53,501 bases of DNA from Hassallia byssoidea VB512170 (lineage in GTDB: Bacteria > Cyanobacteriota > Cyanobacteriia > Cyanobacteriales > Nostocaceae), in assembly GCF_000817785.2 (NCBI RefSeq), contig NZ_JTCM02000039.1:1-53501 (forward strand), read 5' to 3'. Both the position numbers and the translations under genes were made by a program. Shown here piece by piece: positions 18,157-49,665 of this stretch (within the stretch, counting starts at the first letter, position 1; every line of letters begins with the position of its first letter). The notes under the pieces are model-generated. The model searched no databases. It was not told the origin of the DNA and saw only the letters and a list, made by a program, of their open reading frames with translations.

Positions 18157-18211
18157 TAGCAGAGCATCGCTCATTTGTTTGGCGAACTATTAGGAATTCG
18201 CAAAGGATATT

Positions 18212-18880: not shown

Positions 18881-18931
18881 TGTGCATTAGCGATCGCCAC
18901 GTTTACGTATGCTTAAAGTAGCACCAAGCAG

Positions 18932-23591: not shown

Positions 23592-23599
23592 ATGCGGGG
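23578..23599 (+). other. Right-end hairpin of the IS200/IS605 element
   Basis: CCCCGTCT paired with AGA(TG)CGGGG; the tnpB stop (23589-23591) lies at its loop and first 3' stem bases. In this family the strand of the right end, together with the 3' end of tnpB, also forms the omega RNA that guides TnpB, so this stretch is probably transcribed and functional. Confidence 0.6.
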
Positions 23600-23606
23600 A
23601 GTGTCA

Positions 23607-25427
23607 ATGCGAGAATTTGAACAATTATTCATACTGGCAAAAACTCTGGAGAAAAAGGCTGAACGGCAAGTGTCGATCGCAAATGCCCGTACTAATCCCA
23701 AATCTGAAGAACCGTCGGTCAAAGCTATGGGTCGTCCTAAATCTGCTGGGCAGAAACCTCAATCGCAAGCTGATAATCACACTTTTCAGCCAAAGCCTGC
23801 CATGCGATCGCTAGAAGCCGTTGGGGGCTTAAGTGAAGTGCTTGCAGAACTCCGCGATTTGGTGGCTCTACCGCTCAAGCGCCCGGATTTACTAGAAAAA
23901 CTAGGATTAGAGCCGACGCGGGGAGTGTTGTTAATCGGTCCGCCAGGGACTGGTAAAACCCTGACCGCTCGCGCCTTGGCAGCAGAATTGGGTGTGAATT
24001 ACATCGCAATTGCAGGTCCTGAGGTAGTGGGTAAGTACTATGGTGAAGCAGAGGCGCGTTTGCGGCAGATTTTCCATAAAGCTACGGGATCGGCGCCTTG
24101 CCTAATTTTTATTGACGAGATTGACAGCCTTGCACCGGATCGCGCAAGCGTGGAAGGTGAAGTCGAGAAGCGCGTCGTTGCTCAACTCCTGAGTCTCATG
24201 GATGGCTTTGCTCAACTCAATGGGGTGATGGTTCTAGCAGCAACTAACTGTCCCGGTCGCGTAGATCCTGCCCTGCGTCGCCCAGGTCGCTTTGACCGCG
24301 AAGTGTATTTCCGCGTCCCCGATCGCAACGGTCGGTTGGAAATTCTCAAGATTCAGACTCGCTCGATGCCAATGGATGTATCTGTGGATTTGGAGGCGAT
24401 CGCAGATTTGGCAATCGGATTTGTTGGTGCTGATTTGCGAGGACTCTCTCAGAAGGCAGCGTATAATGCCTTGCACCGCTCTACTCTGTCTCTGGACTCA
24501 CCAATACCTAGCGATTTGGGCATCAGTCAGCAAGATTTTTTACAAGCATTCAAGGATGTCAAGCCCTCCGTCCTGCGTCCAGTGGCAATTGAAACCCCCA
24601 ACATTACTTGGGATCAAATTGGTGGGCTAGAAACCATTAAATCCATCTTACAGGAATCTGTAGAAGGTGCATTGCTTTATCCCGAACTCTACCGCCTGAT
24701 GAGAGCCATATCTCCACGCGGTATTCTACTTTGGGGACCGCCGGGAACTGGCAAAACTCTGCTGGCAAAAGCTGTAGCTGCTCAAGCAAGGGCAAACTTT
24801 ATTGCTGTCAATGGGGCAGAACTGCTCAGTCGTTGGGTGGGTGTATCGGAGCAAGCTGTGCGGGATTTGTTTACTAGAGCAAGGCAAGCAGCGCCCTGTG
24901 TCATTTTTATTGATGAAATTGATACCTTTGTCCCTGTTAGAGGGGGTTATGACAGTGATGGTGTGAGCGCTCGTGTCGTTGGTCAACTTCTTACAGAGAT
25001 TGATGGTATCCAATCTTGCGATAACGTTCTGATTATCGCCGCAACCAATCGACCAGATATGCTTGACCCTGCTCTCTTAAGAGCTGGTCGCTTGGATTTG
25101 CAACTTAAGGTGGATCTGCCGGATCTCACAAGTCGTCTGGAAATTTTACAGGTTCACAACCGCGATCGCCCCTTGGCAGAAGATGTAAACTTGGCAGCTT
25201 GGGCTGTGCGTACAGAAGGTTGGAACGGTGCCGAACTTGCACTCCTTAGCAATCAGGCTACTCTGCAAGCTATTCGACGCTATCGCATCCAAGGATTCAC
25301 CAACCCAACTGTTGCGAGCATTATCGCTGCGGATTTTGAAACTGCCTATCAATCTCTGCTAGAACGGCGGTACAGTCCGGAAAACCAGGCAGCTATGCTG
25401 AAAAACCAACAGCAGTTAAAAGTTTAA
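23607..25427 (+). CDS. Second Cdc48-like tandem AAA ATPase lacking the N-domain
   Basis: 606 residues, paralogue of 6221-8080. Two intact AAA modules: GPPGTGKT with IFIDEIDSLAPDR, and LWGPPGTGKT with IFIDEIDTFVP; GRFDRE and GRLDLQ motifs present. The N-terminus (MREFEQLFILAKTLEKK) matches the helical segment of the paralogue, which supports the ATG at 23607 over the one at 23592 that lies in the IS right-end hairpin. The IS end supplies bases up to the A of this ATG, so the ribosome-binding site (GGGGAG) is also IS-derived. Followed after 34 bases by the coiled-coil gene, probably in one operon. Confidence 0.88.
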   Translation: MREFEQLFILAKTLEKKAERQVSIANARTNPKSEEPSVKAMGRPKSAGQKPQSQADNHTFQPKPAMRSLEAVGGLSEVLAELRDLVALPLKRPDLLEKLGLEPTRGVLLIGPPGTGKTLTARALAAELGVNYIAIAGPEVVGKYYGEAEARLRQIFHKATGSAPCLIFIDEIDSLAPDRASVEGEVEKRVVAQLLSLMDGFAQLNGVMVLAATNCPGRVDPALRRPGRFDREVYFRVPDRNGRLEILKIQTRSMPMDVSVDLEAIADLAIGFVGADLRGLSQKAAYNALHRSTLSLDSPIPSDLGISQQDFLQAFKDVKPSVLRPVAIETPNITWDQIGGLETIKSILQESVEGALLYPELYRLMRAISPRGILLWGPPGTGKTLLAKAVAAQARANFIAVNGAELLSRWVGVSEQAVRDLFTRARQAAPCVIFIDEIDTFVPVRGGYDSDGVSARVVGQLLTEIDGIQSCDNVLIIAATNRPDMLDPALLRAGRLDLQLKVDLPDLTSRLEILQVHNRDRPLAEDVNLAAWAVRTEGWNGAELALLSNQATLQAIRRYRIQGFTNPTVASIIAADFETAYQSLLERRYSPENQAAMLKNQQQLKV

Positions 25428-31840: not shown

Positions 31841-32770
31841 TCAAATTGGCATACCGTTAGAAGCAGTCCAGTGTTTTGCAAAATACTCAAAGAGCCATTG
31901 ATACTTTTGGGAACTTCTATCAAGATTATTTAAACTGGCTAAAGATTTATCTAAACCATTATCCCTGAACTTGTTAGAATTAGTGTAATGAATTGATACT
32001 AGGTTATCAAAACTTCTAATTTGCTCCGATTCGGGAACTCTATTATGTAAAGAAATAGGGTAATTGTACTGTGGAGATAAAGTCCATACATTTTCTGTCA
32101 TTGCACATATAGTAGCAGCCATTGTTGTTTGCGAAACATAAAAAATTCCTCCATTTCTTGGTTGTATTTTACTCTCCAGAACTTTCTCTAAATTATTTTT
32201 CCAATTAGAAAACAAGCCCAAATTTCTTTTGACTACAACCAGTCCTGCATTCCAATAAGCCCTAATATTTTTTTTATCGACTGTAGTAGTCACAAACATA
32301 TTGTATCTGTTTCCTACTATTTCATAGAGTTTCTGCCAATACTCTTCATTTGGGTCGTTTTGTCCTTCAGAACCAACATTTTTAATAAAGACAGGACGTA
32401 CTCCAATATCATATTCTGAAGGTAATAAAACCTCTTCAGGTTCATTAAATAAAATTTGATCGCTATCTAAAAGAACTAAAATATCCGCATCTAGGTTTTC
32501 CTCTGCCCAAGTACCAAGACAAGGTTGATTAGCAAAAGCAAAATCTGGATATTTATTATTTAAGAATTCTCTGACATGAACAACATCTAAAGCTTTCAAA
32601 GCTTTGGAAGTTTTTTGAGAAATATCTGGAGTATTTCTCACCTCAAAACTATATATGGGAGCATCTTTTAAAGAACCGCCAAATTTCCGAATACTCTCCA
32701 CAAGCAATAGAGAATAATCTTCTATAGGACCTGCTTCTGTACAAATTAGAAAAGCAATGGATGTTGACAT
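31841..32770 (-). CDS. Putative nucleotide-sugar glycosyltransferase (GT8-like fold)
   Basis: 309 residues, intact. IAFLICTEAG opening strand, then ADILVLLDSDQIL with a DxD-type DSD motif for divalent-metal/nucleotide-sugar binding, and FVTTTVDKKNIRAYWNAGLVV. These fit a GT-A-fold transferase, but I cannot name its family securely. It has no transmembrane helix and starts at ATG 32770. It is the first undamaged gene next to the broken island. Confidence 0.65.
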   Translation of the reverse strand: MSTSIAFLICTEAGPIEDYSLLLVESIRKFGGSLKDAPIYSFEVRNTPDISQKTSKALKALDVVHVREFLNNKYPDFAFANQPCLGTWAEENLDADILVLLDSDQILFNEPEEVLLPSEYDIGVRPVFIKNVGSEGQNDPNEEYWQKLYEIVGNRYNMFVTTTVDKKNIRAYWNAGLVVVKRNLGLFSNWKNNLEKVLESKIQPRNGGIFYVSQTTMAATICAMTENVWTLSPQYNYPISLHNRVPESEQIRSFDNLVSIHYTNSNKFRDNGLDKSLASLNNLDRSSQKYQWLFEYFAKHWTASNGMPI

Positions 32771-33219: not shown

Positions 33220-33606
33220 ATGAATAGGCGAAGCCTTTTAAAACTCAGTTTCCTCACTACTGTCTCTTGGTTCTTTTTCGAGTCATCAGTCAAAGCTTGT
33301 GTCAGTAATCGCGTTCTTGCTCAATTACATCAAAAGCTACTGAATTTACCACAGCTGAAGAATTTCCAAGTCATTGGAGAACGCTACCTCAAGTTGTATC
33401 CAGAGGAGACTCAACTGAAGCACCTGATTGCTGGGTTTAGCGAACTAGTTGTCATCGCAGGAGACTCACAGCTAGAAAATGATTGGTATCGGTGGCTGCA
33501 CTTCAAAATTAAACAAGACTTCAAGCACCGACAAACGGTTCAAATTGATGGGTGGATTTTTTCTAAGACAGAAGCTCAGTTATGTGCTCTAGCGACACGC
33601 TTGTAG
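33220..33606 (+). CDS. Short protein with twin-arginine-like signal, function unknown
   Basis: 128 residues. The N-terminus MNRRSLLKLSFLTTVSWFFF is a twin-arginine-type (RRSLLK) signal followed by a hydrophobic stretch, which suggests Tat export. The mature part is a small helical domain (QLHQKLLNLPQLKNFQVIG, ENDWYRWLHFKIKQDF) that I do not recognise. It lies 127 bases upstream of the MBOAT gene, same strand, so may belong to that acyl-transfer cluster. Confidence 0.6.
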   Translation: MNRRSLLKLSFLTTVSWFFFESSVKACVSNRVLAQLHQKLLNLPQLKNFQVIGERYLKLYPEETQLKHLIAGFSELVVIAGDSQLENDWYRWLHFKIKQDFKHRQTVQIDGWIFSKTEAQLCALATRL

Positions 33607-35217: not shown

Positions 35218-38200
35218 ATGTTAGCAAAACCCGTACTCAAATTCTCGACATTAGTAGAGCTATTGCACAAAAGAGCCTTTGACCAGTCTGACCGCACAGC
35301 TTATACATTTCTAGAAGATGGAAACACAGAAGCCGGACACCTAACATATCATCAGCTCTGGCGACGCGCCCAATCGATAGCCGCTCAGTTGCAGTCCCTT
35401 ACCGCCACAGGCTCTCGAGCCTTGCTGCTTTACCCGCAGGGGTTGGAATTCATTGCTGCCTTTTGCGGTTGCCTGTATGCAGGAGTCATCGCCATCCCCG
35501 CGCCGCCACCCGATCCCACGCGACTGAAGCGAACCTTACCCAGACTTGAGGCGATCGCCCTCAATGCTGGAGCCACCCTGGTGCTGACCACTTCCCACCT
35601 CATGACTCAGCTTGAGGAAAACTCCTCACAGATAAAAGAATTCCCAGCCGACCACTGGCTTTGCACCGACAAGATTACAGAAGAATTAGCCCAAGAATGG
35701 CAACAACCAGAAATCAGCAGCGACACCCTAGCCTACCTCCAGTACACCTCCGGCTCCACCTCGACCCCCAAGGGAGTGATGGTCAGCCACGGCAACCTGA
35801 TGCACCATGCAACTTCCCTCCAAAAAGCGTGCGAATACACATCGGACAGCATCACCGTGACCTGGATGCCGTACTTCCACGATTATGGATTGGTTCAAGG
35901 CATGATCTTACCGCTTTACACAGGTACTCCCTGCTACCTGATGTCGCCCTTTTCCTTTATCAGGCGTCCGTTCCACTGGCTATTAGCAATTTCCCGTTAT
36001 CGAGCAACCCACAGCCAAGCACCGAATTTTGCTTACGACCAGTGTATTCGTCGGATTACAGCCTCCCAACGCACTCAACTAAATTTGAGTAGTTGGCAAG
36101 CCGCAGGCAACGCCGCTGAACCCATCAATCCTCTAGTGGTGCAAGAGTTTATTGAAACCTTTGCACCCTGCGGTTTCCGTGCTGAAGCCTTTGCACCGGC
36201 TTACGGACTTGCGGAAGCTACTCTGTTGGTTTCCAGCAGTCCGATAAGTTCACCTCCCGTGTATTGCACCCTTGAGGCGGCATCCCTAGAAAAAAATCGG
36301 GTAGTTGAGGCAACCGAACCTCAGGAAATGGTACGGACGATACCAGGATGCGGTCGCTTAGTAGGCGATACGAAAGTAGTCATTGCCAATCCTGACAATT
36401 TGACTCAGTGTGAGCCGGATGAAGTGGGCGAGATTTGGGTGTCAGACCCCAGTGTGGCACTAGGCTACTGGCAGCGCAACGAAGAAACCGAGAAAACCTT
36501 TCGAGCACAACTGCGAGACACACAAGAAGAACCCTTTTTGCGTACTGGCGACCTGGGATTCATCAAAGACGGTGAGTTGTTCGTCACGGGGCGAATTAAA
36601 GATTTAATCATCATCTTGGGGAGGAATTATTATCCCCAGGATATTGAATTCACTGTAGAACGAAGTCACAATGCCATTCGACCCAATGGTGGGGCGGCAT
36701 TTTCCGTCGAGGTGAATGGCGAAGAGCGACTGATAATTGTTCAAGAAATCGAACGCGGTCAATTGCGGAATCTGGATACGGATGAAGCGATCGAGTCAAT
36801 CCGTCAGGCAGTGGCACAAGAACACGAACTGCCAGTTTATGCCATAGTGCTAATTAAAGGTGGAAGCATTCCTAAGACTTCCAGCGGTAAAATCCAGCGC
36901 CGCGCTTGTCAGAGTGCGTTTCTTAGCGGTACTCTCGATGTCGTAGCTCAGTGGATGTCCAATCTGAACGGCGTTTGTGCAGAAACAGCGGCTACTCGTG
37001 AAACGGTCGAGTTGTTGCCAAAAAGCACCCCCATACAAAAAAAAATCGCCGCGATTTGGGCAAATTGCCTGGTTTTGCCACAAGTTGGACTTTATGACAA
37101 CTTCTTTATCCTGGGGGGACATTCTCTTCATGCGGTGCAAATTATCTCTGAAGTGGGTGAAGCCTTCTCCATAGATTTGCCCCCAAGCCAACTGTTGGAA
37201 TCCCCTACCGTAGCCAGTCTATCAGCGCAGGTAGAGGCAGCTGTCACACGCAAACGGCAACAGACTCAACACAAGAAAAAAGGCTTGAGAACTTACCAGC
37301 AATTTTATTGGGTTGTGGTGAGTGTTGTCTTGTTGCTTGTCTTGTCGATCGCCTCGTTCAACTGGGTAGTTGACCCCTATGGAGTGTTGAATAGCCCAAT
37401 TGTTCAAGGATTTAATCAGTTAAAACCAGAACAGATACACCATGAAAGACTCTTTAAAGCGATCGAGATTATCCACCTCAAGCCCCAAATAATTTTTTTT
37501 GGAACATCCAGAACTAAGCGGGGCTTAGATCCGAGGCATCCAATTTTTCATGACCAAAATGCCTATAATCTCGCAATGGCTGGAGCAACCATGTATGAAA
37601 TCAGGCGTTATTTTAACCACGTACTGGCTAATCAACCTAATCTTAAGCAAGTAGTTCTCGGACTTGATTATATTTCATTTGCTATGAATGAAAAATTTCA
37701 AGATGATTTTGATGAGGGAAGATTAGAGCAAAAAAGGATTACCCTGAAAGACTTAATCAGTGTTCTGTTTTCCACAGATGCTTTTGAAGACAGTCTTAAG
37801 ACCCTAGCTAAAAACTTGAGCCACTCAAAATCACAGAAGTATAGCTTTTTCAAAGGCTTAGAAATTATTGACGATCAAAAAGAGCTTCCCGGTTCTTTTC
37901 AAAATTTTATTCAGGGGGGAGTTTACCCTTTAAGAAAAAAGGATAAATATCTGCTATCAAAAGAACAATTAAAGGAATTGAAAAGTTTAATTGAAATCTG
38001 CCAGTCAATAAATATAGACCTAAAACTATTTATTTCGCCGATTCATGCAACACTGTTAGAAGTTTATCGCGTAAGAGATGAGTGGTCAGAAATTGAACGC
38101 TGGCTGCGATCAATTGTTAAACTGACTGATGTTTGGGATTTCTCTAGCTACAACAGCATCACGACAGAAGAAATCAAAAACCAGATGCAATATTACTTAG

Positions 38201-38406
38201 ACTATTCCCATTATCGAAAAGAAGTGGGTAATTTAATACTGAACCGTATATTCGATTTTCAACAAGAAACGGTGCCAAGAGATTTCGGAGTTATCATCAC
38301 TCCTGATAATATTGAGTCTCATTTGGCTCAAATCAATACTGACCATGCAGCGTGGGCAAAAAACCATCCCCAACTAGTAAAGTTAGCGCAGGATTTACAG
38401 AAATAG
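35218..38406 (+). CDS. Fatty-acyl-AMP ligase-ACP-membrane-SGNH fusion
   Basis: 1062 residues. About 1-580: fatty-acyl-AMP ligase, with YTSGSTSTPKGVMVSHGN, WMPYFHDYGLVQG, PNFAYDQC, and LRTGDLGFIK; the FAAL type adenylates fatty acids without CoA. About 600-680: acyl carrier domain with the phosphopantetheine serine in LGGHSLHA (~636). About 694-712: a transmembrane helix (WVVVSVVLLLVLSIASFNW). About 720-1062: SGNH/DltD-like domain with GTSRTKRG (~761) and C-terminal DYSHY (~995). Together with the adjacent MBOAT these correspond to DltA, DltC, DltD and DltB roles, with fatty acids in place of D-alanine. The acceptor is unknown; a surface polysaccharide is a reasonable guess. Confidence 0.88.
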   Translation: MLAKPVLKFSTLVELLHKRAFDQSDRTAYTFLEDGNTEAGHLTYHQLWRRAQSIAAQLQSLTATGSRALLLYPQGLEFIAAFCGCLYAGVIAIPAPPPDPTRLKRTLPRLEAIALNAGATLVLTTSHLMTQLEENSSQIKEFPADHWLCTDKITEELAQEWQQPEISSDTLAYLQYTSGSTSTPKGVMVSHGNLMHHATSLQKACEYTSDSITVTWMPYFHDYGLVQGMILPLYTGTPCYLMSPFSFIRRPFHWLLAISRYRATHSQAPNFAYDQCIRRITASQRTQLNLSSWQAAGNAAEPINPLVVQEFIETFAPCGFRAEAFAPAYGLAEATLLVSSSPISSPPVYCTLEAASLEKNRVVEATEPQEMVRTIPGCGRLVGDTKVVIANPDNLTQCEPDEVGEIWVSDPSVALGYWQRNEETEKTFRAQLRDTQEEPFLRTGDLGFIKDGELFVTGRIKDLIIILGRNYYPQDIEFTVERSHNAIRPNGGAAFSVEVNGEERLIIVQEIERGQLRNLDTDEAIESIRQAVAQEHELPVYAIVLIKGGSIPKTSSGKIQRRACQSAFLSGTLDVVAQWMSNLNGVCAETAATRETVELLPKSTPIQKKIAAIWANCLVLPQVGLYDNFFILGGHSLHAVQIISEVGEAFSIDLPPSQLLESPTVASLSAQVEAAVTRKRQQTQHKKKGLRTYQQFYWVVVSVVLLLVLSIASFNWVVDPYGVLNSPIVQGFNQLKPEQIHHERLFKAIEIIHLKPQIIFFGTSRTKRGLDPRHPIFHDQNAYNLAMAGATMYEIRRYFNHVLANQPNLKQVVLGLDYISFAMNEKFQDDFDEGRLEQKRITLKDLISVLFSTDAFEDSLKTLAKNLSHSKSQKYSFFKGLEIIDDQKELPGSFQNFIQGGVYPLRKKDKYLLSKEQLKELKSLIEICQSINIDLKLFISPIHATLLEVYRVRDEWSEIERWLRSIVKLTDVWDFSSYNSITTEEIKNQMQYYLDYSHYRKEVGNLILNRIFDFQQETVPRDFGVIITPDNIESHLAQINTDHAAWAKNHPQLVKLAQDLQK

Positions 38407-38475: not shown

Positions 38476-38517
38476 CGTTCGCGAAGCGTCTCGTTCACGA
38501 AGTGTCTCCGAAGGAGA
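38476..38517 (-). repeat. Dispersed repeat TCTCC-GGAGACGCT family, copy 3
   Basis: On the minus strand TCTCC TTC GGAGACACTTCGTGAACGAG and then GCTTCGCGAACG, a close match to the copies at 22160 and 22550. It lies in the gap before the GMC oxidoreductase and falsely extends that gene's frame upstream. Confidence 0.7.
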
Positions 38518-38591
38518 AGAGAAGGACACGAAGTAATAAGAGTTTGAGAGAGTTTTTGCGTAAGTCCTATAAACGTAAGGTAATAATTATT

Positions 38592-40154
38592 ATGCATATT
38601 GATGCAAGAACATTAGAGAATAACACTTTGATAAATGGCGATTTATGTATCATTGGTGCTGGTGCGGCAGGAATTAGTATTGCACGCGAGTTCATAGGTA
38701 CTCCTTACAAGGTGATTCTTTTAGAGAGTGGTGGGTTTGACTATGATGAGGAAACCCAGTCTCTTTATGAGGGTAAAAACATTGGCTTGCCCTATTTTTC
38801 CTTAGATCAAGCTCGGTTACGCTTTTTTGGTGGAGCGACAAACCACTGGCAAGGAATGTGTGCCCCGCTTGACCCGATTGACTTTGAGAAACGTGACTGG
38901 ATACCATACAGCGGCTGGCCAATCAGTTGGTCAGATTTAGATCCCTACTATTCTCGCGCCCAGAAGGTGTGTGAATTGGGACCCTATCGGTACGACATGG
39001 AATTCTGGGAACAGCAGGAGCGAGACTTAAATAGGCTGCCGTTAGATCCATCAACAATTTCTTACAAAATTTTTCAATACAGTCCGCCAACGCGCTTTGG
39101 TCAAGTGTATCGAGAGTCCTTGCTCACAGCAAATAATATAGTGCTGTGGACTTATGCTAATGTCACAGCAATTGAGACAACTACTAACGCAGCAAGGGTA
39201 ACGGGATTACGCATTAAGTGTCTCAACGGCAAAGAACATCAAGTTGTTTCCCGGTACTACGTGCTTGCTTGTGGGGCGATAGAGAATGCGCGGTTATTGT
39301 TAGTTTCAAATCAGATTGAACACCAGGGATTAGGAAATCGGCACGATCTAGTGGGGCGTTTTTTTATGGAACACATCCACGTAGGTTCTGCCCGTTTGCT
39401 GGTGTCAGCCTCGTTTCCTTTACAATATGTGGCTGATATAGGGTTCCAAGAGAAGGTACACTTAAGAGTGAGCGAGCAGTTGCAACGAAAACGTAAACTG
39501 TTGAATTGCGCCTTTGATTTGTACGCAACAGACCTTTTCCCAGCTGACTACTTCGACTATTCACAACATGAGGTATCGAAGGAAGAGATAAAGCTTTATT
39601 TGTCAGCACTACAAACCCTCAAAGATAGTTTTTGGGTGGATAAACGCGATCGCTTGCAGTCTCTAGACGATCCGATTGGGGTAGGGACTCGCGAACTGAT
39701 TGTTTTTGCTGCACTAGAGCAGGTTCCTAACCCGGCTTCACGAGTCACTCTAGATCGAGAGAAAGATAAGCTAGGTATTCACAAGAGCCAGTTAGATTGG
39801 CGTTTCACAGACCTAGAACGACGGACTATAGAAGAAGCCACTCAACTCATGGGTTATGAAATCGGGCGATCGCAATTAGGGCGTCTGCAAATATTTGACT
39901 GGCTAACTCAAGAAACTCATTCTTGGCCTCAATTTCCTGAAGTTTTGAGAGGAGGATACCATCACATGGGTACCACGCGCATGAGCGATAATCCTCATAG
40001 TGGCGTTGTCAACTCTAACTGTCAGGTTTATGGAGTTAGCAACCTATATATTGCTGGGTCATCTGTGTATCCCACTGCTGGTACAGCTAACCCAACCCTA
40101 ACCCTAGTTGCACTGGCGATCAGGCTAGCGGAGCATCTCAAGGGGCTGCTTTAA
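38592..40154 (+). CDS. GMC-family FAD-dependent oxidoreductase
   Basis: 520 residues. FAD-binding GxGxxG motif in LCIIGAGAAGISIA, followed by VILLESGG, FFGGATNHWQGMC and the C-terminal GMC signature with GGYHHMGTTRM and SNLYIAGSSVYPTAGTANPT. The active-site histidine pair region HHMGTTRM is present. Family members oxidise alcohols, sugars or sterols. Start is the ATG at 38592; the frame runs back to 38502 only through a repeat. It overlaps the convergent sulfotransferase by 17 bases. Its substrate is not evident from context. Confidence 0.88.
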   Translation: MHIDARTLENNTLINGDLCIIGAGAAGISIAREFIGTPYKVILLESGGFDYDEETQSLYEGKNIGLPYFSLDQARLRFFGGATNHWQGMCAPLDPIDFEKRDWIPYSGWPISWSDLDPYYSRAQKVCELGPYRYDMEFWEQQERDLNRLPLDPSTISYKIFQYSPPTRFGQVYRESLLTANNIVLWTYANVTAIETTTNAARVTGLRIKCLNGKEHQVVSRYYVLACGAIENARLLLVSNQIEHQGLGNRHDLVGRFFMEHIHVGSARLLVSASFPLQYVADIGFQEKVHLRVSEQLQRKRKLLNCAFDLYATDLFPADYFDYSQHEVSKEEIKLYLSALQTLKDSFWVDKRDRLQSLDDPIGVGTRELIVFAALEQVPNPASRVTLDREKDKLGIHKSQLDWRFTDLERRTIEEATQLMGYEIGRSQLGRLQIFDWLTQETHSWPQFPEVLRGGYHHMGTTRMSDNPHSGVVNSNCQVYGVSNLYIAGSSVYPTAGTANPTLTLVALAIRLAEHLKGLL

Positions 40155-41283
40155 CGGTAAGCTCATCTGGTACATCATATTGCCATTTTTCAATTGTAAA
40201 TCTCCATTGTTCAGTAATCTTTTTTATCGTTTCTTCATCTAAAGTGTACTTATTTGTTTCATAGTTAGCCTGAGATTGAATATATTTTTTGAATTCAGCT
40301 TCTGCTTGTTCAAAGCTAGGAAGGTTAAATTGAGCATATACCTGCTTGAGGTATTCGATTTCGTTGCCAATAAAATCTTCATATTTAATTTCAATCAAGT
40401 TTTCTGGCGGGAGAGAATTCTTATCAACTAGAAATTTTTGCATCATTTGTTTATAGATAAAAATTATATTTTCCTCTAGTTCCGCTTCATTTATCGTCTG
40501 AAACCCAAGAACTCGCACGAGTTTTTTATACAGTGTGTTTGTGGAAGCATAAATACTGTATGGATTTCGGTAAAGGTGAATGAATTTTGCGTCTGGAAAC
40601 ATTTCCAATAAAATTTTTATTCTGGCTGTATTTATGGGATTTTTGAGAATAAGTCGTTTTCCATTAACAGCCAATGTTATTCGCTTTAAATTTTTTATGT
40701 ATGCTCTTTTCCATTCAGTTTTTATCCGGTCATCAACACCTTCAAATAATACAAATTTCTGGAAAATTTTTCTCATATTATTAGGAAAATAAAACCACGT
40801 ATAAAAAGAATAAGGACAGGCATTTGCTAAAGGAAATTCTTCCTCCGCAGGAGAATTAGCATACATCATTACCTCGTCAGATATTCTTTTTCTGGGATAG
40901 TTTGAGTCTGCCCAACGTTTAGCTAATTCTGGGCTGCTCAGAAAGATTTCCGATCCCCTCATAGCTTGCCAATTTTCTAGATATCCTAGATTGGGATCTC
41001 GACTCATTAAATATTGGAAATAAGTTGTTCCACTGCGGGGATGCCCAAGAATAAATATAGGCGGTAGCTCAATTTCTAATTCGGCAATCTTTTGAGAAAA
41101 CTTGACGTTCTCAAAAATCTTTAAAGGAATGGTCAAAAAACTTGCAGTTGCTGCTGATAACGCTTGGGGTAAATATTCTCTATCTACACCCCCATTCCAG
41201 AGAAACAATTTCATCAAACTAATAAACGAGCTACCTGCTAGGGGGTGTTGTTCAACGGCAGTAATACGTTGTTTAGATTTCAT
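40138..41283 (-). CDS. PAPS-dependent sulfotransferase
   Basis: 381 residues. 5'-phosphosulfate loop LGHPRSGTTYFQ (80-90) and a 3'-phosphate-binding region with FIHLYRNPYSIY. These are the two signatures of the sulfotransferase fold. It uses PAPS to sulfate hydroxyl groups, here probably a polysaccharide or lipid. An APS kinase that makes PAPS lies at 49108-49665. Ends overlap the GMC gene by 17 bases; it is upstream of no other gene on its strand within 95 bases. Confidence 0.88.
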   Translation of the reverse strand: MKSKQRITAVEQHPLAGSSFISLMKLFLWNGGVDREYLPQALSAATASFLTIPLKIFENVKFSQKIAELEIELPPIFILGHPRSGTTYFQYLMSRDPNLGYLENWQAMRGSEIFLSSPELAKRWADSNYPRKRISDEVMMYANSPAEEEFPLANACPYSFYTWFYFPNNMRKIFQKFVLFEGVDDRIKTEWKRAYIKNLKRITLAVNGKRLILKNPINTARIKILLEMFPDAKFIHLYRNPYSIYASTNTLYKKLVRVLGFQTINEAELEENIIFIYKQMMQKFLVDKNSLPPENLIEIKYEDFIGNEIEYLKQVYAQFNLPSFEQAEAEFKKYIQSQANYETNKYTLDEETIKKITEQWRFTIEKWQYDVPDELTVKAAP

Positions 41284-41378: not shown

Positions 41379-43019
41379 CTATTTTTTATGAATTTTTTCG
41401 ACTTTCCACAGTTCTGTTACTGGCTCGTCAATCAACCTGAATGAATAGGTTTTATCCTCCTTAAATCGAGCAATCAAGTTTTTGCCAATAGTACTATCAT
41501 TCAAAAAGATATTGCTGGCTTCTTGGGGGAGGAGTGGCAGATGGTCACGTTGTGCAGTTAGTAAATTTATTTTTGAATTTAAAAGATGACTTAAAGTTAG
41601 CATGTGTCCGATATTATAAAAATCGTTGCTACTTAATAATAAAGTATTCTCGAATTTATTGATATATTTAGCCGTTGCTACCAAAGATTGACTACCTTCT
41701 TGTAGCCACCAAGTATCAGCTTTAAAAAAACTCACATCTGAGACTAGTCCAGCCAACAGAAATCCAACCATTAAACATTGCCCAACTTTTTGCTTCCAGT
41801 GCTTCTCAGAGAAGATATAGACACCTAAAACATAAGCCAAAGCAATTTGGATGCTGAGGTATAAAGGCATTTGATACCGAACATTAGTAGAGCGAATTCC
41901 CCCCGCAATCAGGTCGGGTAGCAGCAAGCAGAGAGATGGAACCGCTCCTAACAAAATCAGAAACAAACTAACTCTATTTAATCTTTTTTTAGATAAAAAA
42001 TACACTAATATTATTAAAACTAGAGAAAATATTCCAGCCATAACGCTGTAATATGTATGACTTGTTTCCCAAAATAATTCATTCCTCCAAGGCTTATACG
42101 AACTAAAGTTAATATCAAAAAATATTCGAGTGATGTGAGTCATAAAAATAGCAATTAAATTGAAAGGATTATCTAATTTATAGAATGAGAAATGGGACGT
42201 TTGCTGTTGGGCTGTGCTGATATGAGTAATGAGGACAAATATCCAAGGAAGAAAAATAAATAACCCAACTGTAGTTCCCAAGAGATAATTGGCAAGGGTT
42301 TTGTTAAAGCGAAAGCGTTGTTGAGAAGCCACATAAATGCCATGAGCCATTGCTACTAAAGCAGTGAATAAATGGGTATACAATCCCACAGCTAGGGTCA
42401 GGGCATATATTGCCCAGTTCAAGAAAGTTTCCCGTCGGATACTTCGCAACAAGGCAGCACTGCATACTAGAATTGTTACCATCCACAAACCGTACTGGCG
42501 TGCCTCTTGAGCGAAGAAAATCTCTAAGGGAGAAACAGCCACAATTGCGATCGCCACCCATCCCACAATTGGGGACTCGAACAACTCTAGACACAGCCAA
42601 TACACGCTCTGGAATATCAACAGACCGATCGCCGCTGATAAACTCCTCAGTCTGGCTGGTGAATCTCCAAATAGTTGCGCCCACAATCTCACCATCGCAT
42701 AATACAAAGGGGGATGCTGCGGGTCTGAGGTCATTAAATAGCGAACCGTGTCATTGATGCCTCGGTCTGGATCAAGGTGTTGATATTTATCCAAGGCAGC
42801 AACAGGAATTATGCGCTCATTAAAGACTTCGTGTCGAACCTCGGATACGGTATGACCTGAAATTGCCAAGGATGTAAAAGCTTCATCGTACCATATAGCT
42901 TTTTGTCCTAGATGTGCAAAGCGAAAGAAGATGCCTAACCCGATTAGGAAAATTACCAATATTTTTAACCAAATCGGGGGAATTTGCTTAACTATTGTGG
43001 ACGGTTTTTCTGGGTTCAT
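41379..43019 (-). CDS. GT39/ArnT-type membrane glycosyltransferase
   Basis: 546 residues with about ten to twelve membrane helices. Family features: WYDEAFTSL with the catalytic-type Asp-Glu pair, DPQHPPLYY in the first large loop, RSLSAAIGLL, and a C-terminal soluble tail. These enzymes transfer sugars from polyprenyl-phosphate donors at the outer face. It lies between the sulfotransferase and the chlorophyll-MFS fusion on the same strand. Confidence 0.82.
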   Translation of the reverse strand: MNPEKPSTIVKQIPPIWLKILVIFLIGLGIFFRFAHLGQKAIWYDEAFTSLAISGHTVSEVRHEVFNERIIPVAALDKYQHLDPDRGINDTVRYLMTSDPQHPPLYYAMVRLWAQLFGDSPARLRSLSAAIGLLIFQSVYWLCLELFESPIVGWVAIAIVAVSPLEIFFAQEARQYGLWMVTILVCSAALLRSIRRETFLNWAIYALTLAVGLYTHLFTALVAMAHGIYVASQQRFRFNKTLANYLLGTTVGLFIFLPWIFVLITHISTAQQQTSHFSFYKLDNPFNLIAIFMTHITRIFFDINFSSYKPWRNELFWETSHTYYSVMAGIFSLVLIILVYFLSKKRLNRVSLFLILLGAVPSLCLLLPDLIAGGIRSTNVRYQMPLYLSIQIALAYVLGVYIFSEKHWKQKVGQCLMVGFLLAGLVSDVSFFKADTWWLQEGSQSLVATAKYINKFENTLLLSSNDFYNIGHMLTLSHLLNSKINLLTAQRDHLPLLPQEASNIFLNDSTIGKNLIARFKEDKTYSFRLIDEPVTELWKVEKIHKK

Positions 43020-43075: not shown

Positions 43076-45331
43076 CTAATTTTTGGGAATTTTAAGTTTT
43101 TTCGCCGTCTCTAACGCATAGAAATCTGGTTGACGACCTATGGCAAACCTGAGGGAGCTAGATAAGTCTTTGTTAATCAGAGTGATAAAAAAGATAAGTG
43201 TTAAGAAGGCTATGCCTGCACACAGCGAGTAAACACCTCGGTAACCTAGGCTCTCGGCAACAGAACCCATAACGTATCCAGCTAGGACAACTCCCAAGTC
43301 CAGACCACTAAGAGCGGCTGAGTAAGCCCTGCCACGTTCTTCGGATGAACAGCGATCGGCAACTAAAGTATTTAGCATTGGTGGCCAAGTTGCTGCTGCT
43401 GCTCCTTCAAGGAGAGCCGCGAATAAAAAAGCTAGTGTACTTTGAGCATAGGATAAGACCGCAAGGGACAGTCCGGACAAGACGAGACCACAACTAATAA
43501 ACAGTCCCCGTCCATAGAGATCCAAGACTCGACCGAAAATGAGGCGCATAGCAAGATTGGCAATGGCTGCCGTGGCAAAAAACCAGCCTACATTCAGGTT
43601 GACTTGAGTTTCTCTGATGAACAACCCCACAAAGATACTTGACGAACTAAAAACTAAATTACCCAATAGGAAAACTAGAAAAGGAACCCGGAACCGAGGG
43701 CTGATTAATAGCTGCCAAAACTCACTGAAGGCAAATGCAGAAGTTTTGGGTTGAGAAACCTTCCTCTGTTCGCGAATTTGGGCAACACATAATAGACCCA
43801 GCAAACCCAACGCTCCAGCACTGAAAAACAAGGTTGTGTAGCCAAACTCACTCATCAAAAAGCCACCTAAAGCAGGACCTATAAACAACGCTATGGGTCT
43901 TGCCATACTCAGAGAGCTAATTAATTGACCCCGCTTTTCTACTGGCGACAAATCGGCAACCAGAGCAGCGTAGCTCGTGCCGAAGGCAGCAATAGCTATG
44001 CCGTGGAAAGCTCGGATGAGTATCAGCAGTGGAATCGAATCTACAAACCTATAGGCTAAAGGTGCGATCGCCACTACACTGGTAGCGATGCCCAATACCA
44101 ACTTGCGACCGCGCTGGTCAGAGAGAGCGCCCATTGAAGGTTTAAACAACAACAGCCCAAAGGTCAAGCTGCCCATCACTATCCCAACCTGCTGATTGCT
44201 ACCTCCGACATCCGCAATATATTGAGGCAATGTGGGCAGCAGAGTATCGAAACTTGACCAAAACAGCAGCGAGGTGGCACCTGCAAACAGCAGCGAACGA
44301 TTGGTATCGGAGAGGTTCTCTACAGAGGAGTAAACTAGCTGGACTACGGGTGGGCGATCGCCTACAGCACGCAGCGCATGAAATAGATGTCCTCCCAAAA
44401 AGACAACACCTAGCCACAAATTTGCATTTGCTAGCCAGATGCGAGAAGTGAGAATTGTTCCATCCCCACTGTATAAAGCCGGAAAGGGGTGAAAGCCAAA
44501 ACTCAGCGTTGGTCCAAAGAACTCTGGTGGACAAGCGATCGCGTTGACACTAACAAACAAAGTGGCAATAAAAGCCATCAAACTGAGTGCGCCGATACTG
44601 TAAGATAAGTACGCTTCCGCTGACCAAACAAACAACGGTTTGACCACAAGCCACGGTTGGGTGAGGATATGCCAAATGCCACCAGCGATGCACATGATGC
44701 CAACATAAATATGACCCCCAATTATGTCTTCCAAATTATCCACGCTAGCCAACCAAAATTTTCCCTTCAGTCCGACTAGGTAGCTAAAAATAGTTGTTGG
44801 GTTCAATGTGGGGTCAGTCACTAAACGCACTTGGCTAATTGTTGAGTCGTAAATGCCACCAAAAAACATGGCTTTACTTACTAACAACAACGCTCCCACA
44901 CCCAAGAAAATCAGGTGAATGCCCAGAATTGTAGTTATTTTGTTGGCATCATCCCAGCCATAGCCATAGAATTTATCTTCTATGACATCTGGACCTTTAA
45001 GAGCATGAAACAGACCTCCAGCACCGAGAAAGGCTGAACTAATTAGGTGTAAAGCCGCAATTACAAAGTAAGGGTAGGTATCAATGACTTCACCTCCCTC
45101 ACCGATACCAAAGCCCAGCCGTGCCAGATTAGGCAGAACAATTAAACCTTGCTGGTACATTGGCTGCGCTGGGTTAAAGATGTGCAATTCAAAGGCGGCG
45201 ATCGCACCTACACAAAATACCATTAAACCAGCATAAGCAACATGAGCGCCCAGCAACTTTCCTGACAAATTGGGCAAACGAGCATTGCCTGACCACCAAG
45301 GAATATCCGACGAACTTTTAGGAAAATTCAT
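43076..45331 (-). CDS. Chlorophyll-binding antenna (IsiA/Pcb type) fused to an MFS transporter
   Basis: 751 residues. Residues about 1-335 are a CP43-like antenna: [20 protein letters not shown] opening, six membrane helices and the expected chlorophyll-ligand histidines ([56 protein letters not shown]). The long lumenal loop of CP43 is absent, so this is the IsiA/Pcb type. From about 345 a complete 12-helix MFS transporter follows, with [12 protein letters not shown] in loop 2-3 and [18 protein letters not shown]. The ATG at 45331 gives the usual Pcb start; it overlaps the methyltransferase gene by 14 bases. I know no characterised protein of this architecture. The frame is unbroken across the join. 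Confidence 0.9.
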
Positions 45332-45983
45332 ACACTTGATTATTGAAAGATTCACTTTTTTCCGTCAATTTAACCTTCACTTGATACCCCAGTAACTCTG
45401 CCGTTCTCTTTGGGTTATTAATTTCATCTCCTAAATCCGAATAATTCATCAAAATTTTGCCATCTGATTTGAGGTAATTTCTAGCTTGTCTGAGAAATCT
45501 TTCGTTAAGCGGATGACCTTCATCTGAGCTGGCGTTAAATGGACCACCTGCATAGTAAAACGGTTGATTGAAAACTATCAAATCAAACTGAATTGCTTGA
45601 TTGAGTTGTGCAAATAAATTGCTGTGTACTACCTCAATTGGAGCTAAATCGTTATTCAGCTTGATGTTTTCTTTTGTACACTCAACTGCTGCTGGATTTA
45701 TGTCTGCTGCCCAAACATTTGGCACTTTGTTTTGGCGGAGAGTCAATGCCAGATACCCGCTACCGCAGCCCAGATCCAGTGCTGTGTTGACCGAGTAAGT
45801 TTTTAGAACCTTTGCCATTAGTTTTGTTGTGTATCCCTGTTCTGGGGGGAAAACACCCTTGCCAATGTTAAGTTTTATTCCATCTAATTCTATTAAGTAC
45901 GGTTGACGTTGGTAAACTTCATACATTTTAGCGGTTCTTTCTTTTTGATCTGGCGAAAGTTCAAGTTTGTTTTCGCTATTCAT
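45318..45983 (-). CDS. Class I SAM-dependent methyltransferase
   Basis: 221 residues. SAM site [17 protein letters not shown], acidic [11 protein letters not shown], and NQPFYY (an NPPF/NPPY-like catalytic motif of the HemK/RsmC group that methylates amide, amino or RNA nitrogens). Its 3' end overlaps the start of the antenna-MFS gene by 14 bases, so the two are translationally coupled. The natural substrate is unknown; a small-molecule, peptide or RNA nitrogen is possible. Confidence 0.82.
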
Positions 45984-46251: not shown

Positions 46252-46788
46252 TTATGCCAAACGCAGTCGAGGACAATTTTCTAGAAACGAAGCCGCTTTA
46301 TTTTTAGCTTTCGGGTTATCAGTATGCGCTCTCGTGGGTCGGATAATGCCATTGAGCAAATCATCCAAACCATAAGGAGTAAAAAATTGCCATTCTCCAG
46401 AGGCATTTAGCCTCACTCCTACAGCGGTTGCGGTATGCAGCCAGTCTGCAATTCCTTCCTCGGTGCTATTGTAACGGGTAGAACCAGAACGCCAAATAGC
46501 AAAACTGGCTTGATTTTTAACATCAAACTCGTAGTCGGGAAATTGAGCCGAGAGGATTGCCTTTGCCGCGAGTTCTTGGGAGCGATCGCCTTGTGCATCA
46601 AAAAAAGCAATATCAAAGTCTTTGATGAATAATTGACAATCATCCCCAAACAGCGATCGCCAAACTGTATTTCTTACTGCACCTCCTGCCAACCACCAAC
46701 AAGATAGATTCAGTTGAGCTATCGCAGGTAATACAGTGGCAATGGGAGAGTTAATCAAAATCTTTTGCACTCGAACTGTACTATCCAT
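46252..46788 (-). CDS. Nucleotidyltransferase-fold protein
   Basis: 178 residues from the ATG at 46788 (a longer frame to 46938 overlaps the aminotransferase gene and is not used). CWWLAGGAVRNTVW is the GG-start of a nucleotidyltransferase fold and FIKDFDIAFFDAQ supplies the paired acidic residues. It resembles the uncharacterised DUF925 (NTP_transf_6) family. Function unknown. It follows the DegT aminotransferase on the same strand by 20 bases. Confidence 0.7.
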   Translation of the reverse strand: MDSTVRVQKILINSPIATVLPAIAQLNLSCWWLAGGAVRNTVWRSLFGDDCQLFIKDFDIAFFDAQGDRSQELAAKAILSAQFPDYEFDVKNQASFAIWRSGSTRYNSTEEGIADWLHTATAVGVRLNASGEWQFFTPYGLDDLLNGIIRPTRAHTDNPKAKNKAASFLENCPRLRLA

Positions 46789-46808
46789 TTCTTTCTCTAA
46801 TTTTGGGT

Positions 46809-48032
46809 TCAAGAAAGTTTTTGGCTGATAGATAGCCCATGTTCCAAAACAAACCGGATAATTCTTGTGATTTTGCTGATGTCTTCCGGTATTATTGCAG
46901 TTCCAGTAGGCAGAGTCAAAATTCGCTCTCCCAGACAATTGGTGTAAGGAAGCTGCTCTTGTGATAAGGGAAACAGCGAGCGGTAAGGTTCCATTTGGTG
47001 GCAGCCAGGGTAAAAGTATCGTCGTGCCAGAATGTTTTCAGCGTGTAATATCTGCATTAGGCGATCGCGACTAATTTGAGTAATCTTCTCGTCAATCTCC
47101 AAAACGATGTACTGGTAGTTGTTCTTCTCGCTTTCATTGAAGGTAAAAAAACGAACTCCGGGGATACCTCCTAGTTCTTGTTGGTATAGTTTGTAATTAC
47201 GGTGGTTGATAGTAATGAATTCGTCTAGGCTTTCCAACCCGGTTAAGCCCATTGCTGCACAGACTTCGTTCATTTTGCCGTTGGTGCCTATAGACATGGC
47301 ATTGTCGTAGCCTGCTGCAAAGCCAAAATTCACCATCAGGCGAATCGAGTTAGCTAACTCGTCATCATTGGTGACGACGGCTCCCCCCTCAAAGGTATTG
47401 AGAAACTTGGTAGCATGAAAGCTGAGAACTTCTGCCTGACCAAAATTGCCGATCGCTCGTCCTTGGTATGAACTGTAAAAAGCGTGTGCCGCATCAAAGA
47501 TAAGTTTGAGATTGTGACGCTGGGCGATCGCGCTTAGGGCTTCGACATTGCACGGCTGCCCCCAAACGTGGACACCAAGAATTGCGCTGGTGTCTCTTGT
47601 AATCAGCTTCTCGACCATTTGAGGATCGATTGTATGGGTATGGGGGTCAATATCGCAAAAGACAGGGGTAAGTCCTAGCCATTGTAAAGCATGAGCCGTG
47701 GCAATGAAGGTAAACGATGGCACTATGACTTCGCCTGTAAGGTTAGCAGCTTTAGCCGCAATCTGTAGAGCAACTGTGCCATTGCAGGTGGCAATGCAGT
47801 GCTTAACACCAAGAATCTTCGCGATGCGAGATTCAAACTCTTGGACATATTTCCCACCATTAGATAACCACTTTCTGTCCAAAATATCGTTAATGCGATT
47901 TAGCAGGTGCAAGCGATCGCCGATATTAGGACGACCTACATAAATTTTATCCCCAAAAGTAGGAGTGCCTCCGAAAATAGCAAGTTTCTGATTGAGTCTA
48001 ACAGAAGTTTTTTTTACCGAAGCTTGTACCAA
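46809..48032 (-). CDS. DegT/DnrJ/EryC1-type PLP aminotransferase
   Basis: 407 residues. PLP features: SFHATKFLNTFEGGAVVTND with the Schiff-base lysine in HATKFLN, GVHVWGQPCNVEAL, LIFDAAHAFYSSYQG. The family makes amino-sugars on nucleotide-sugar keto intermediates, fitting a polysaccharide role. No ATG precedes the conserved start; the TTG at 48032 has AGGA 8 bases upstream and an in-frame TAA bars any earlier start. Confidence 0.87.
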   Translation of the reverse strand: MVQASVKKTSVRLNQKLAIFGGTPTFGDKIYVGRPNIGDRLHLLNRINDILDRKWLSNGGKYVQEFESRIAKILGVKHCIATCNGTVALQIAAKAANLTGEVIVPSFTFIATAHALQWLGLTPVFCDIDPHTHTIDPQMVEKLITRDTSAILGVHVWGQPCNVEALSAIAQRHNLKLIFDAAHAFYSSYQGRAIGNFGQAEVLSFHATKFLNTFEGGAVVTNDDELANSIRLMVNFGFAAGYDNAMSIGTNGKMNEVCAAMGLTGLESLDEFITINHRNYKLYQQELGGIPGVRFFTFNESEKNNYQYIVLEIDEKITQISRDRLMQILHAENILARRYFYPGCHQMEPYRSLFPLSQEQLPYTNCLGERILTLPTGTAIIPEDISKITRIIRFVLEHGLSISQKLS

Positions 48033-48114: not shown

Positions 48115-49059
48115 TTAATTACGAATTGCTGCTTTTTGTTCCTTTTTTTCAATGTCCAATTTCTGATTTGTGATGATATCTTGACACAGCCCTATCCCAA
48201 AACTATGGTCGAATTCTTCAAACTTTTGCTGAAGGCTTTTCAAGTCTCCATTCATCACAGAGTCATAGATGGGTATAGAGAATTCTTCATAAATACAGGG
48301 TTTGATTTCTCCGTTTGGAGTTACATACAAACTTCCCTGTTCTCGACATAACTCTTTGGCATCATCAACATCCCCAGTCATCACTGCTGCCCTACAAAGA
48401 CAGCGCATTGTAGTAATGGTATTATTACCCTTTTTCCAAGTTTTTTTCAAATCTCCTTTCTCTAAAAAATAACCATTATCCTCTAGAAGACTTTCTAGCT
48501 TGATTATCTCTAAAGATGGATCGGAAAATCCTCCTAGTTCCAACACTTCAATAAACTTAATTTCTACTTTTGTTGATTCGGAAAAATTGAGTAGTTCTTG
48601 AGCATTGGCTAGGCTAATAAATGGAGTGTTCAATTTTGTGTAGATTCCCGCATTATAAGCTGCCATAACATTCTTAATGGTAGCTTCAAAGGGTAATTGC
48701 TTAATAGCTTCGTAGGCTTCTTTGCTTAGGGAATCCACATTAAATTTAATCTCGTCCAAGTAGGGGAATAGCTTATATAGACGGTCAGTGAGAGTACCAT
48801 TCGTGGTTATAGATAAGTATATTCCTCTCTCTTTAACCGCCTTAGCAATTTCGACAATATGAGGATTTAGTGTAGGTTCTCCACCACTTAGAATGACTTC
48901 TTCTGTCGGGACGATATCAAGTAACTTTCCTACAAACTCCTCATTCATAGTGCTATTAACTGGTACTGCCTGACCTTCATTATGGCAGTAAGGGCATTTG
49001 GCATTACAGTAGAAGGTAGTTAAAAATCTGATCCGTCTCGGTTTAATATGTAATTTCAC
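48115..49059 (-). CDS. MoaA/SPASM-like radical-SAM enzyme
   Basis: 314 residues. Radical-SAM site CNAKCPYC (cysteines 18, 22, 25), then EVILSGGEPTLNP and KFNVDSLSKEAYEA. The C-terminal half has extra cysteines (MRCLCRAAV, LCREQG, KPCIYEE, GLCQD) likely to bind auxiliary iron-sulfur clusters as in SPASM/twitch enzymes. Substrate unknown. Start is the GTG at 49059 with AGGAG upstream. It lies between the aminotransferase and the APS kinase, all on minus. Confidence 0.85.
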   Translation of the reverse strand: MKLHIKPRRIRFLTTFYCNAKCPYCHNEGQAVPVNSTMNEEFVGKLLDIVPTEEVILSGGEPTLNPHIVEIAKAVKERGIYLSITTNGTLTDRLYKLFPYLDEIKFNVDSLSKEAYEAIKQLPFEATIKNVMAAYNAGIYTKLNTPFISLANAQELLNFSESTKVEIKFIEVLELGGFSDPSLEIIKLESLLEDNGYFLEKGDLKKTWKKGNNTITTMRCLCRAAVMTGDVDDAKELCREQGSLYVTPNGEIKPCIYEEFSIPIYDSVMNGDLKSLQQKFEEFDHSFGIGLCQDIITNQKLDIEKKEQKAAIRN

Positions 49060-49107: not shown

Positions 49108-49665
49108 TTATCCTTTTTCTATTACCTGCCTTATCTTCGGAATATATTTGTATTCTTCTAAAGCTTGTATAACTTTATTTATACTTTCTCTAATATTTAA
49201 GCATTGAGTATCGCAAATGATTTCTGGACTTAATGGTTCTTCATACGGGCTATCAATACCTGTGAAATATTCAATCTTTCCGGCTCTAGCCAATGCATAT
49301 AACCCTTTGACATCTCGTTGTTCACAGGTTTGTAAAGATGCTTTAATGTACACTTCAACAAAGTTCTCTGACATGTGTCGAACTTCTTCGCGGACATCTC
49401 TATAAGGACTAATTGCCGCCACAATCGCGATAACTTGATTGCGGCTTAACAGGCTGGCAACAAATCCAATGCGACGAACGTTTATGTCTCGGTCTTGTTT
49501 GCTAAACCCTAACTCTTGTGAAAGGTGTGTCCGGACTACATCTCCATCTAAAATTTCTACGGGACAACTTCTTGCCTTTAATTCCAATGCCACGCCATTT
49601 GAAATTGTAGTTTTCCCAGCACCAGAGAGTCCTGTAAACCATAACGTAAATCCTGAATAGTTCAT
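49108..49665 (-). CDS. cysC: Adenylylsulfate (APS) kinase
   Basis: 185 residues. P-loop GLSGAGKTT (12-20), LDGDVVRTHLS, DRDINVRRIGFVA, and the EVYIKASLQTCEQRDVKGLY lid region are the CysC signatures. It phosphorylates APS to PAPS, the sulfate donor for sulfotransferases; one lies at 40138-41283. In cyanobacteria a second, cluster-linked CysC is consistent with sulfated surface polymer synthesis. Position at the start of the minus-strand run suits joint expression. Confidence 0.9.
   Translation of the reverse strand: MNYSGFTLWFTGLSGAGKTTISNGVALELKARSCPVEILDGDVVRTHLSQELGFSKQDRDINVRRIGFVASLLSRNQVIAIVAAISPYRDVREEVRHMSENFVEVYIKASLQTCEQRDVKGLYALARAGKIEYFTGIDSPYEEPLSPEIICDTQCLNIRESINKVIQALEEYKYIPKIRQVIEKG

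Follow-up and report, generated by a model that had tools for sequence, protein, structure and literature searches.

Can a chlorophyll antenna and a transporter be parts of one and the same protein and, if so, what would the antenna do there? The question is raised by a locus of Hassallia byssoidea VB512170, in which an earlier note, made from the letters alone, described an IsiA/Pcb-type antenna continuing in one frame into an MFS transporter at positions 43076-45331 of the window (the whole stretch of 53,501 nucleotides analysed here). These coordinates are exact, with the addition that the gene lies on the minus strand, which the note had left out. Throughout this work, G000 denotes the genome of the window, G302 the genome taken to be the MAG that contains contig REAP01000028.1 (its contig C257 has the same length), and other G-numbers the further genomes compared.

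The fusion gene and its two halves

The gene and its parts are the following:

43076..45331, minus strand: whole fusion gene, 751 amino acids plus stop
44360..45331, minus strand: antenna domain, residues 1-324, six-helix IsiA/CP43-type, without the long lumenal CP43 loop (PF00421, TIGR03041, AF2 fold)
44300..44359, minus strand: linker, residues 325-344, at the position of IsiA's short cytoplasmic C-terminal helix (helix 328-338 in the full-length model, low confidence)
43106..44299, minus strand: MFS domain, residues 345-742 (PF07690, motifs, predicted helices)

The minus strand is open for 751 codons, from an ATG at 45331 to the stop at 43076-43078, and frame 1 of the plus strand over 43076-45331 holds many stops. 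An alternative GTG start would give a longer protein of 759 amino acids; the ATG is preferred because its overlap with the neighbouring methyltransferase gene is identical in both genomes that carry the fusion. Pfam, run on the whole protein, finds PF00421 (PSII, best stretch 10-276, 5.1e-66) and PF07690 (MFS_1, best stretch from 354, 1.6e-49), and together with TIGR03041 these matches confirm the antenna and the MFS domain in a single frame. The assembled frame is also unbroken at residues 335-345, where the earlier note had wanted it checked. In both copies, stops interrupt one of the two other frames over codons 301-360, and the remaining frame is open but spells an unrelated sequence. Codons 319-356 contain no ATG, GTG or TTG in either copy, so that translation from any of these start codons cannot yield the MFS half without at least the last part of the antenna.

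The antenna half scores 367.4 bits against TIGR03041, an NCBIfam antenna subfamily with a cut-off of 335 (398.5 for the G302 copy), and falls below the cut-off of the NCBIfam CP43 equivalog model (364.1 against 603). Six transmembrane helices are predicted and, in the alignment with CP43, the large lumenal loop is absent. The structure prediction that the note had proposed gave an IsiA-like fold for the antenna alone and a weak model for the whole (pLDDT 69.3, pTM 0.56). When MAFFT aligned the fusion jointly with rows of antennas alone and rows of MFS domains alone, the latter landed in antenna columns. The alignment behind the full-length fold (A3), made with 22 of the 34 antenna stretches, had 16 residues out of place in every one of its 22 MFS rows, which accounts for the weakness of that model and is the reason why the antenna was folded separately. 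Residues 1-335, folded by AF2 with 33 sequences, reached pLDDT 83.3 and pTM 0.79, and matched IsiA chains with TM scores of 0.86-0.89 by query length (Foldseek). The nearest solved chain is 9zjt_2 (PDB 9zjt chain 2, 453.6 bits), followed by the IsiA-PsaL chain 7y3f_1 (376.8), CP43 chains (up to 366.6) and IsiA chains (311-323). In the antenna tree (69 of 113 rows used), the two fusions are sisters (100) within a 22-row group (89) of standalone antennas, the inner forks towards the G173 and G300 copies having support of 87-96 (SH-aLRT, quick search). Many members of this group adjoin an antenna gene of CBPV length, a class assigned by length alone (413-535 amino acids).

Eleven positions were taken as ligand-type (N16, H30, H33, H95, H109, H139, H207, H221, H304, H315 and H318), a choice of columns that follows CP43 in part. 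The G302 copy keeps all eleven and the window copy nine of them, the changes being H33 to Y and H304 to N, so the conserved histidines that had been claimed hold at 8 of the 10 histidine-type positions. Among 32 other rows, position 33 is H in 27 and Q in 5, and position 304 is H in 25 and Q in 4, with no letter in 3. IsiA1 has Q34 and IsiA2 has H34, according to the accessible parts of PMC9938196, and position 33 or 304 may be that site. At the 91 columns conserved in at least 95% of the rows other than the two fusions, the window copy departs at 10 and the G302 copy at 7. The other 32 rows show no departure in 9 cases, one in 6 and two or more in 17, with 12 and 8 departures in two short divergent isi-operon antennas and 0-3 in those 15 standalone rows that belong to the nearest type (14 assigned by the tree, directly or via another piece of the same gene, and L037 by similarity). 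Since two of the eleven ligand-type residues are lost in the window antenna and kept in the G302 copy, the former may be partly degenerate, and its chlorophyll binding may be reduced.

The MFS half exceeds the MFS_1 gathering score by a wide margin (169.2 bits against 33.4) and carries a motif A-like stretch at 401, R440 and GPALGG at 485. The features which we take to mark the DHA1 type (motifs A and C and the arginine in helix 4) are thus present, and NorA is the nearest solved transporter. The domain resembles both exporter and importer models, none of the MFS models among the 25 NCBIfam matches shown being scored above its specific cut-off. Standalone relatives are found in 137 of the 148 genomes of the order sample at E 1e-60 (G000 counted), and in the MFS tree (40 of 42 rows used) a branch of length 1.13 (support 100/100) lies between the two fused domains and the 38 standalone rows. 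The fused MFS and this widespread cyanobacterial transporter are deeply diverged relatives. Derivation of this half from the host's own standalone copy was considered, and is ruled out by the same tree. As for the standalone genes themselves, seven neighbourhoods were read. In four of them (G000, G001, G302 and G237) the gene that comes next after the MFS gene looks by eye like moaC; in the other three (G247, G273 and G289), where it is 53-55% identical to the fused domain, no moaC-like gene follows.

Distribution of the fusion and the surrounding cassette

The earlier note had held that the absence of the fusion from every other genome would speak against it. A scan of contigs (30 stretches pattern-matched) gave a single relative, the same antenna and MFS fusion on REAP01000028.1, an 80,573-base contig of an 'Oscillatoriales cyanobacterium' MAG (G302), with 83% identity over residues 1-745 and 60% over the 20 residues of the linker. 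G302 and G000 belong to different families of one order. The genome sets searched overlap, so the counts are not additive: among the matches listed, a full-length match occurs in one of 99 relatives (G000 itself), one of the five genomes of the genus and one of the 61 of G302's family, as well as, with the best 2 to 4 candidates per genome scored, in 2 of 388 genomes of the order sample, 1 of 217 of G000's family and 1 of 386 of the phylum sample (G302 not being among the matches listed there). None was found in the 20 genomes of the family to which the nearest antenna belongs. No third fusion appears among the matches listed in these sets; all the others are to an antenna gene or an MFS gene standing alone, with identities of at most 71% and 55%, respectively. 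In the plasmid collection, the full protein query returned 88 records, none covering 80% of the query (the first listed is a plasmid CP43, 52.5%), and none of 11 pattern matches in viral contigs was confirmed. Antenna matches running through stops in G113, G342, G012 and G124 were considered as candidate decayed fusions. For G113 and G342 this was rejected, as the next gene is an antenna-family ORF (491 and 456 amino acids) and not an MFS gene.

The genes around the fusion, compared with 55 kb of the G302 contig (blastp of window ORFs), are the following:

45318..45983, minus strand: methyltransferase, its last 14 nt overlapping the fusion start (ATGAATTTTCCTAA) in both genomes
46252..46938, minus strand: NTP_transf_6 nucleotidyltransferase-like protein (G302 partner 89%)
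46809..48032, minus strand: DegT/DnrJ aminotransferase, DesI-like, below the DesI model cut-off (no counterpart in the compared G302 stretch)
48115..49059, minus strand: radical SAM protein (G302 partner 83%)
49108..49665, minus strand: APS kinase, sulfate activation (no counterpart in the compared G302 stretch)
41379..43019, minus strand: PMT_2 mannosyltransferase-like membrane protein (no counterpart in the compared G302 stretch)
40138..41283, minus strand: sulfotransferase (G302 partner 72.5%)
38502..40154, plus strand: GMC oxidoreductase, convergent (G302 partner 80%)
35218-38406, plus strand: fatty-acyl-AMP ligase with carrier domain and a further C-terminal ~390 amino acids without Pfam match
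33220..33606, plus strand: small protein, with relatives beside the GMC oxidoreductase in G302 (70%) and G140 (45%)
31841..32770, minus strand: 309-aa protein without family match (G302 partner 72.5%)

Eight window genes are paired at 70-89%, namely those for the radical SAM protein, the nucleotidyltransferase-like protein, the methyltransferase, the fusion, the sulfotransferase, the GMC oxidoreductase, the small protein and the 309-aa protein (two of the eight have no family match); a ninth match, to an ABC transporter, reaches 28-33% only. The window adds the DesI-like aminotransferase, the APS kinase, the PMT_2 protein, the fatty-acyl-AMP ligase with carrier domain and an MBOAT acyltransferase, and the G302 stretch a further sulfotransferase (REAP01000028.1 15757-16632) without window partner. 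Among the shared cassette genes there is no biosynthetic core common to both genomes. The coupling to a methyltransferase that had been proposed is borne out by the 14-nt overlap in both genomes. The placement among surface-polymer genes holds in part: Wzz-like and glycosyltransferase genes lie further off, and the closest neighbours encode the sulfotransferase, radical SAM, aminotransferase, GMC oxidoreductase, mannosyltransferase-like, fatty-acyl-AMP-ligase and APS kinase proteins.

Relatives of the methyltransferase (E 1e-30 or better) occur in 3 of 310 genomes and those of the GMC oxidoreductase (1e-100) in 5 of 310, G000 and G302 included in both cases. In G330, a methyltransferase (40%) is followed ~330 nt on by a sulfotransferase (56%), with no ORF of at least 90 amino acids between them, and from this pair without fusion the fusion gene seems to have been inserted into a methyltransferase-sulfotransferase pair. 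G140 has the GMC oxidoreductase (60%) and its small partner near genes of 1621 and 4158 amino acids that resemble the window's adenylating enzyme and are read, from their sequences, as NRPS genes.

Elsewhere in the window there are unusual gas-vesicle genes. At 10259-12589 (minus strand), two Laminin_G_3 domains are fused to GvpL/GvpF (776 amino acids), and the gas-vesicle genes continue at 13378-15050 (minus strand): GvpL/GvpF occurs there as a protein of its own, GvpK is joined to a GvpA-like domain (156 amino acids), and a 143-aa protein also has a GvpA-like domain. Near them, the regions 6221-10209 and 16545-25427 encode two proteins with two AAA domains each, a doubled ArsA ATPase, an AAA_5 protein, a 990-aa LamG protein, a small radical SAM protein and a TnpB-like transposase protein. 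At 439-2232 (plus strand), a protein kinase is joined to a formylglycine-generating-enzyme-like domain.

Substitution rates between the G000 and G302 copies were estimated by the Nei-Gojobori method with our own script. For the antenna half dN/dS is 0.143 (dS 0.594) and for the MFS half 0.338 (dS 0.298), and both halves look to be under purifying selection. Within the cassette, dS is 0.40 for the fusion, 0.45 for the radical SAM gene, 0.48 for the GMC oxidoreductase, 0.54 for the nucleotidyltransferase-like gene, 0.59 for the methyltransferase and 0.90 for the sulfotransferase. Control genes of the same genomes give 1.77 (psbB), 1.31 (psbC), 2.34 (standalone MFS), saturation (moaC) and 4.1 (a small nearby gene), and two genes compared within the genus (G000 and G001) give 0.32 and 0.23. 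Highly expressed genes can show unusual dS; the contrast between cassette and controls also holds for the three non-photosystem genes of this small control set of five. That cassette dS lies below all five controls points to horizontal transfer of the cassette, direct or via others, as the simplest reading.

That two genes were joined by a missed stop, a frameshift or a misassembly has next to no probability. The source assembly is a draft (7.5 Mb in 219 contigs, the fusion contig measuring 55,193 bases), but antenna, linker and MFS share one frame in both copies, start codons are absent from codons 319-356, dN/dS is low in both halves, and the junction recurs with shared flanks on the separate contig. 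The same fusion, the same 14-nt overlap and common flanking genes in a MAG of another family make an artefact very unlikely, and the fusion is very probably a real protein architecture, as judged from these sequences.

Possible roles of the fused protein

The reading that we tentatively favour, while granting it less than even chances, is a bifunctional protein, in which a DHA1-type exporter of the cassette product is placed by its IsiA-type domain in the thylakoid at IsiA/photosystem I. MFS proteins start in the cytoplasm. IsiA, according to the accessible parts of PMC12808642, has a short cytoplasmic C-terminal helix reaching towards the photosystem I core, and with both ends on the same side the fusion is topologically sound. 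In Anabaena, a PsaL-like domain at the antenna's C-terminal end replaces PsaL (PMC9938196, in the passages available); from this replacement and the IsiA C-terminal helix, we take it that the antenna may serve for placement and that the MFS may export the cassette product. The MFS would be an exporter of the DHA1 (drug:H+ antiporter) type, presumably working outwards in exchange for protons. Its substrate would be whatever the surrounding cassette makes, probably a glycoside or lipid-like molecule bearing sulfate and methyl groups; as no biosynthetic core is common to both genomes, this product is a guess. The antenna domain, which would bind chlorophyll, may hold the transporter at a thylakoid site with a steep proton gradient, inside or next to assemblies of IsiA and photosystem I, a placement that can be likened to that of the IsiA-PsaL fusion, which puts the antenna at PsaL's place. 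Anchoring by the antenna domain may thus occur and belongs to this reading; against it, an MFS at the end facing photosystem I could block docking. A protein that is in full a pigment-protein-coupled, proton-driven exporter on or next to photosystem I, with a pigment domain that positions or light-tunes the exporter, and that has spread across families in a mobile biosynthetic cassette, seems to us rather unlikely.

It is somewhat unlikely, though to be taken seriously, that the antenna is a mere membrane-insertion or stabilising leader, from a chance fusion fixed together with a cassette exporter, so that the pigment sites slowly vanish, no light is harvested and the MFS works. The two changed ligand-type residues and the 10 departures of the window copy fit this explanation, as do the terminal antenna branches (0.14 in G000 against 0.055 in G302, while those of the MFS are 0.097 and 0.18) and the finding of the fusion in two genomes only, among the matches listed. 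Nevertheless, the antenna is under stricter constraint than the MFS (dN/dS 0.14 against 0.34), and most or all of its ligand-type positions are kept (9 of 11 in G000, 11 of 11 in G302); solved IsiA, according to the accessible part of PMC7214436, holds 17 chlorophylls per monomer. We consider it improbable that the protein serves one pigment pathway, the MFS delivering to the antenna, or taking away from it, some hydrophobic or photoreactive molecule (a carotenoid, a sunscreen or a chlorophyll catabolite). A pigment protein is here physically joined to a transporter, a molecule of this kind could be tailored by the products of the oxidoreductase, methyltransferase and sulfotransferase genes, and a carotenoid oxygenase-like ORF (by eye) lies at REAP01000028.1 204-1637, ~6 kb before the cassette. 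However, none of the eight shared genes (two without family match) was recognised as a chlorophyll or carotenoid gene, and the MFS half has seven Pfam matches up to E 10, none of them to PucC, of which Pfam presumably has a model (the HMMER filters dropping most matches above about 0.1).

An iron-stress protein, in which the MFS would export a siderophore-like metallophore and the antenna be the usual IsiA response, linking two functions of iron limitation, is in our estimate likewise improbable. IsiA family membership speaks for it, as does the similarity to the CntE metallophore exporter model (NF047574), whose score of 87.2 bits is nevertheless far under the cut-off of 235. The set of isi genes can be read on both sides. 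The G000 assembly has four PF00421 matches: CP47, CP43, the fusion and a piece of 257-269 amino acids on contig C144 (1447-2220), which lacks both the first and the last helix (its first residue corresponds to residue 54) and is followed by an apparent hydrolase fragment (by eye). In the antenna tree this piece groups with a CBPV-length gene of G002, of the same genus, in which antenna, CBPV-length, flavodoxin and hydrolase genes (the last two by eye) lie side by side. The C144 antenna being a remnant, the fusion is the sole intact IsiA-type gene in the G000 assembly, which favours the iron-stress reading; G302, on the contrary, has further IsiA-type antenna genes elsewhere (contig C169). In G001, of the same genus, the only two PF00421 matches are read as CP47 and CP43. 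The fusion gene itself lies outside an isi operon and travels with tailoring genes, the isi-type remnant being on another contig; a siderophore synthetase was recognised in none of the scanned window proteins, and no site within 3 mismatches of the 19-base Fur-box consensus occurs in the window (a weak test). These points speak against an iron-stress unit.

Relation to known antenna and transporter systems

The exporter placed by an antenna, as favoured here, has its closest known counterpart in IsiA2/CBPV, the IsiA-PsaL fusion of Anabaena, Nodularia and others (PMC9938196 and PMC3610870, in the parts accessible to us, to which the following comparison is confined). Both have an IsiA/CP43-type six-helix antenna with an extra membrane domain on the cytoplasmic C-terminus, but in CBPV this domain is PsaL-like and the genes sit with isi genes, whereas here it is a 12-helix transporter and the gene lies in a tailoring cassette. 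No PsaL domain was matched in the fusion by Pfam up to E 1, the C-terminal domain being MFS_1. The standalone isi-operon antennas of G173 and G300 are 70-71% identical to the antenna half and share its tree group, its fold family and, at most of the positions taken as ligand-type, its ligand pattern, yet they have no fused domain and lie beside other isi-type antenna genes. The standalone cyanobacterial MFS proteins are 36-55% identical to the MFS half (among the matches listed) and, in the copies examined, share the motif A region, the R of RxFHGI and GPAxGG (the motif A pattern is unmatched in one of five); unlike the fused domain, which forms its own deep branch, they are unfused. PucC/LhaA are MFS proteins that assist antenna assembly in purple bacteria, and so likewise work with a (bacterio)chlorophyll antenna, but as separate proteins, and PucC is not one of the seven Pfam families matched by the MFS half.

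The earlier note knew of no antenna joined to a transporter, and we found no description of such a fusion among the papers listed from the full-text literature searched (a corpus outside subscription journals and protein databases); as far as could be found, the architecture is undescribed. PsaL is the only fused partner of an IsiA/CP43-type antenna that we met in the accessible parts of that literature. If the pigment-protein-coupled transporter were true, no earlier case in which a light-harvesting protein is directly joined to a secondary transporter would be known, as far as we found. The locus also shows that an antenna gene can be part of a cassette that was probably transferred horizontally. 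The joining of an antenna to a transporter suggests that antenna domains may serve as modules placing other membrane proteins in the photosynthetic membrane, and offers a testable link between light-harvesting proteins and the export of specialised metabolites.
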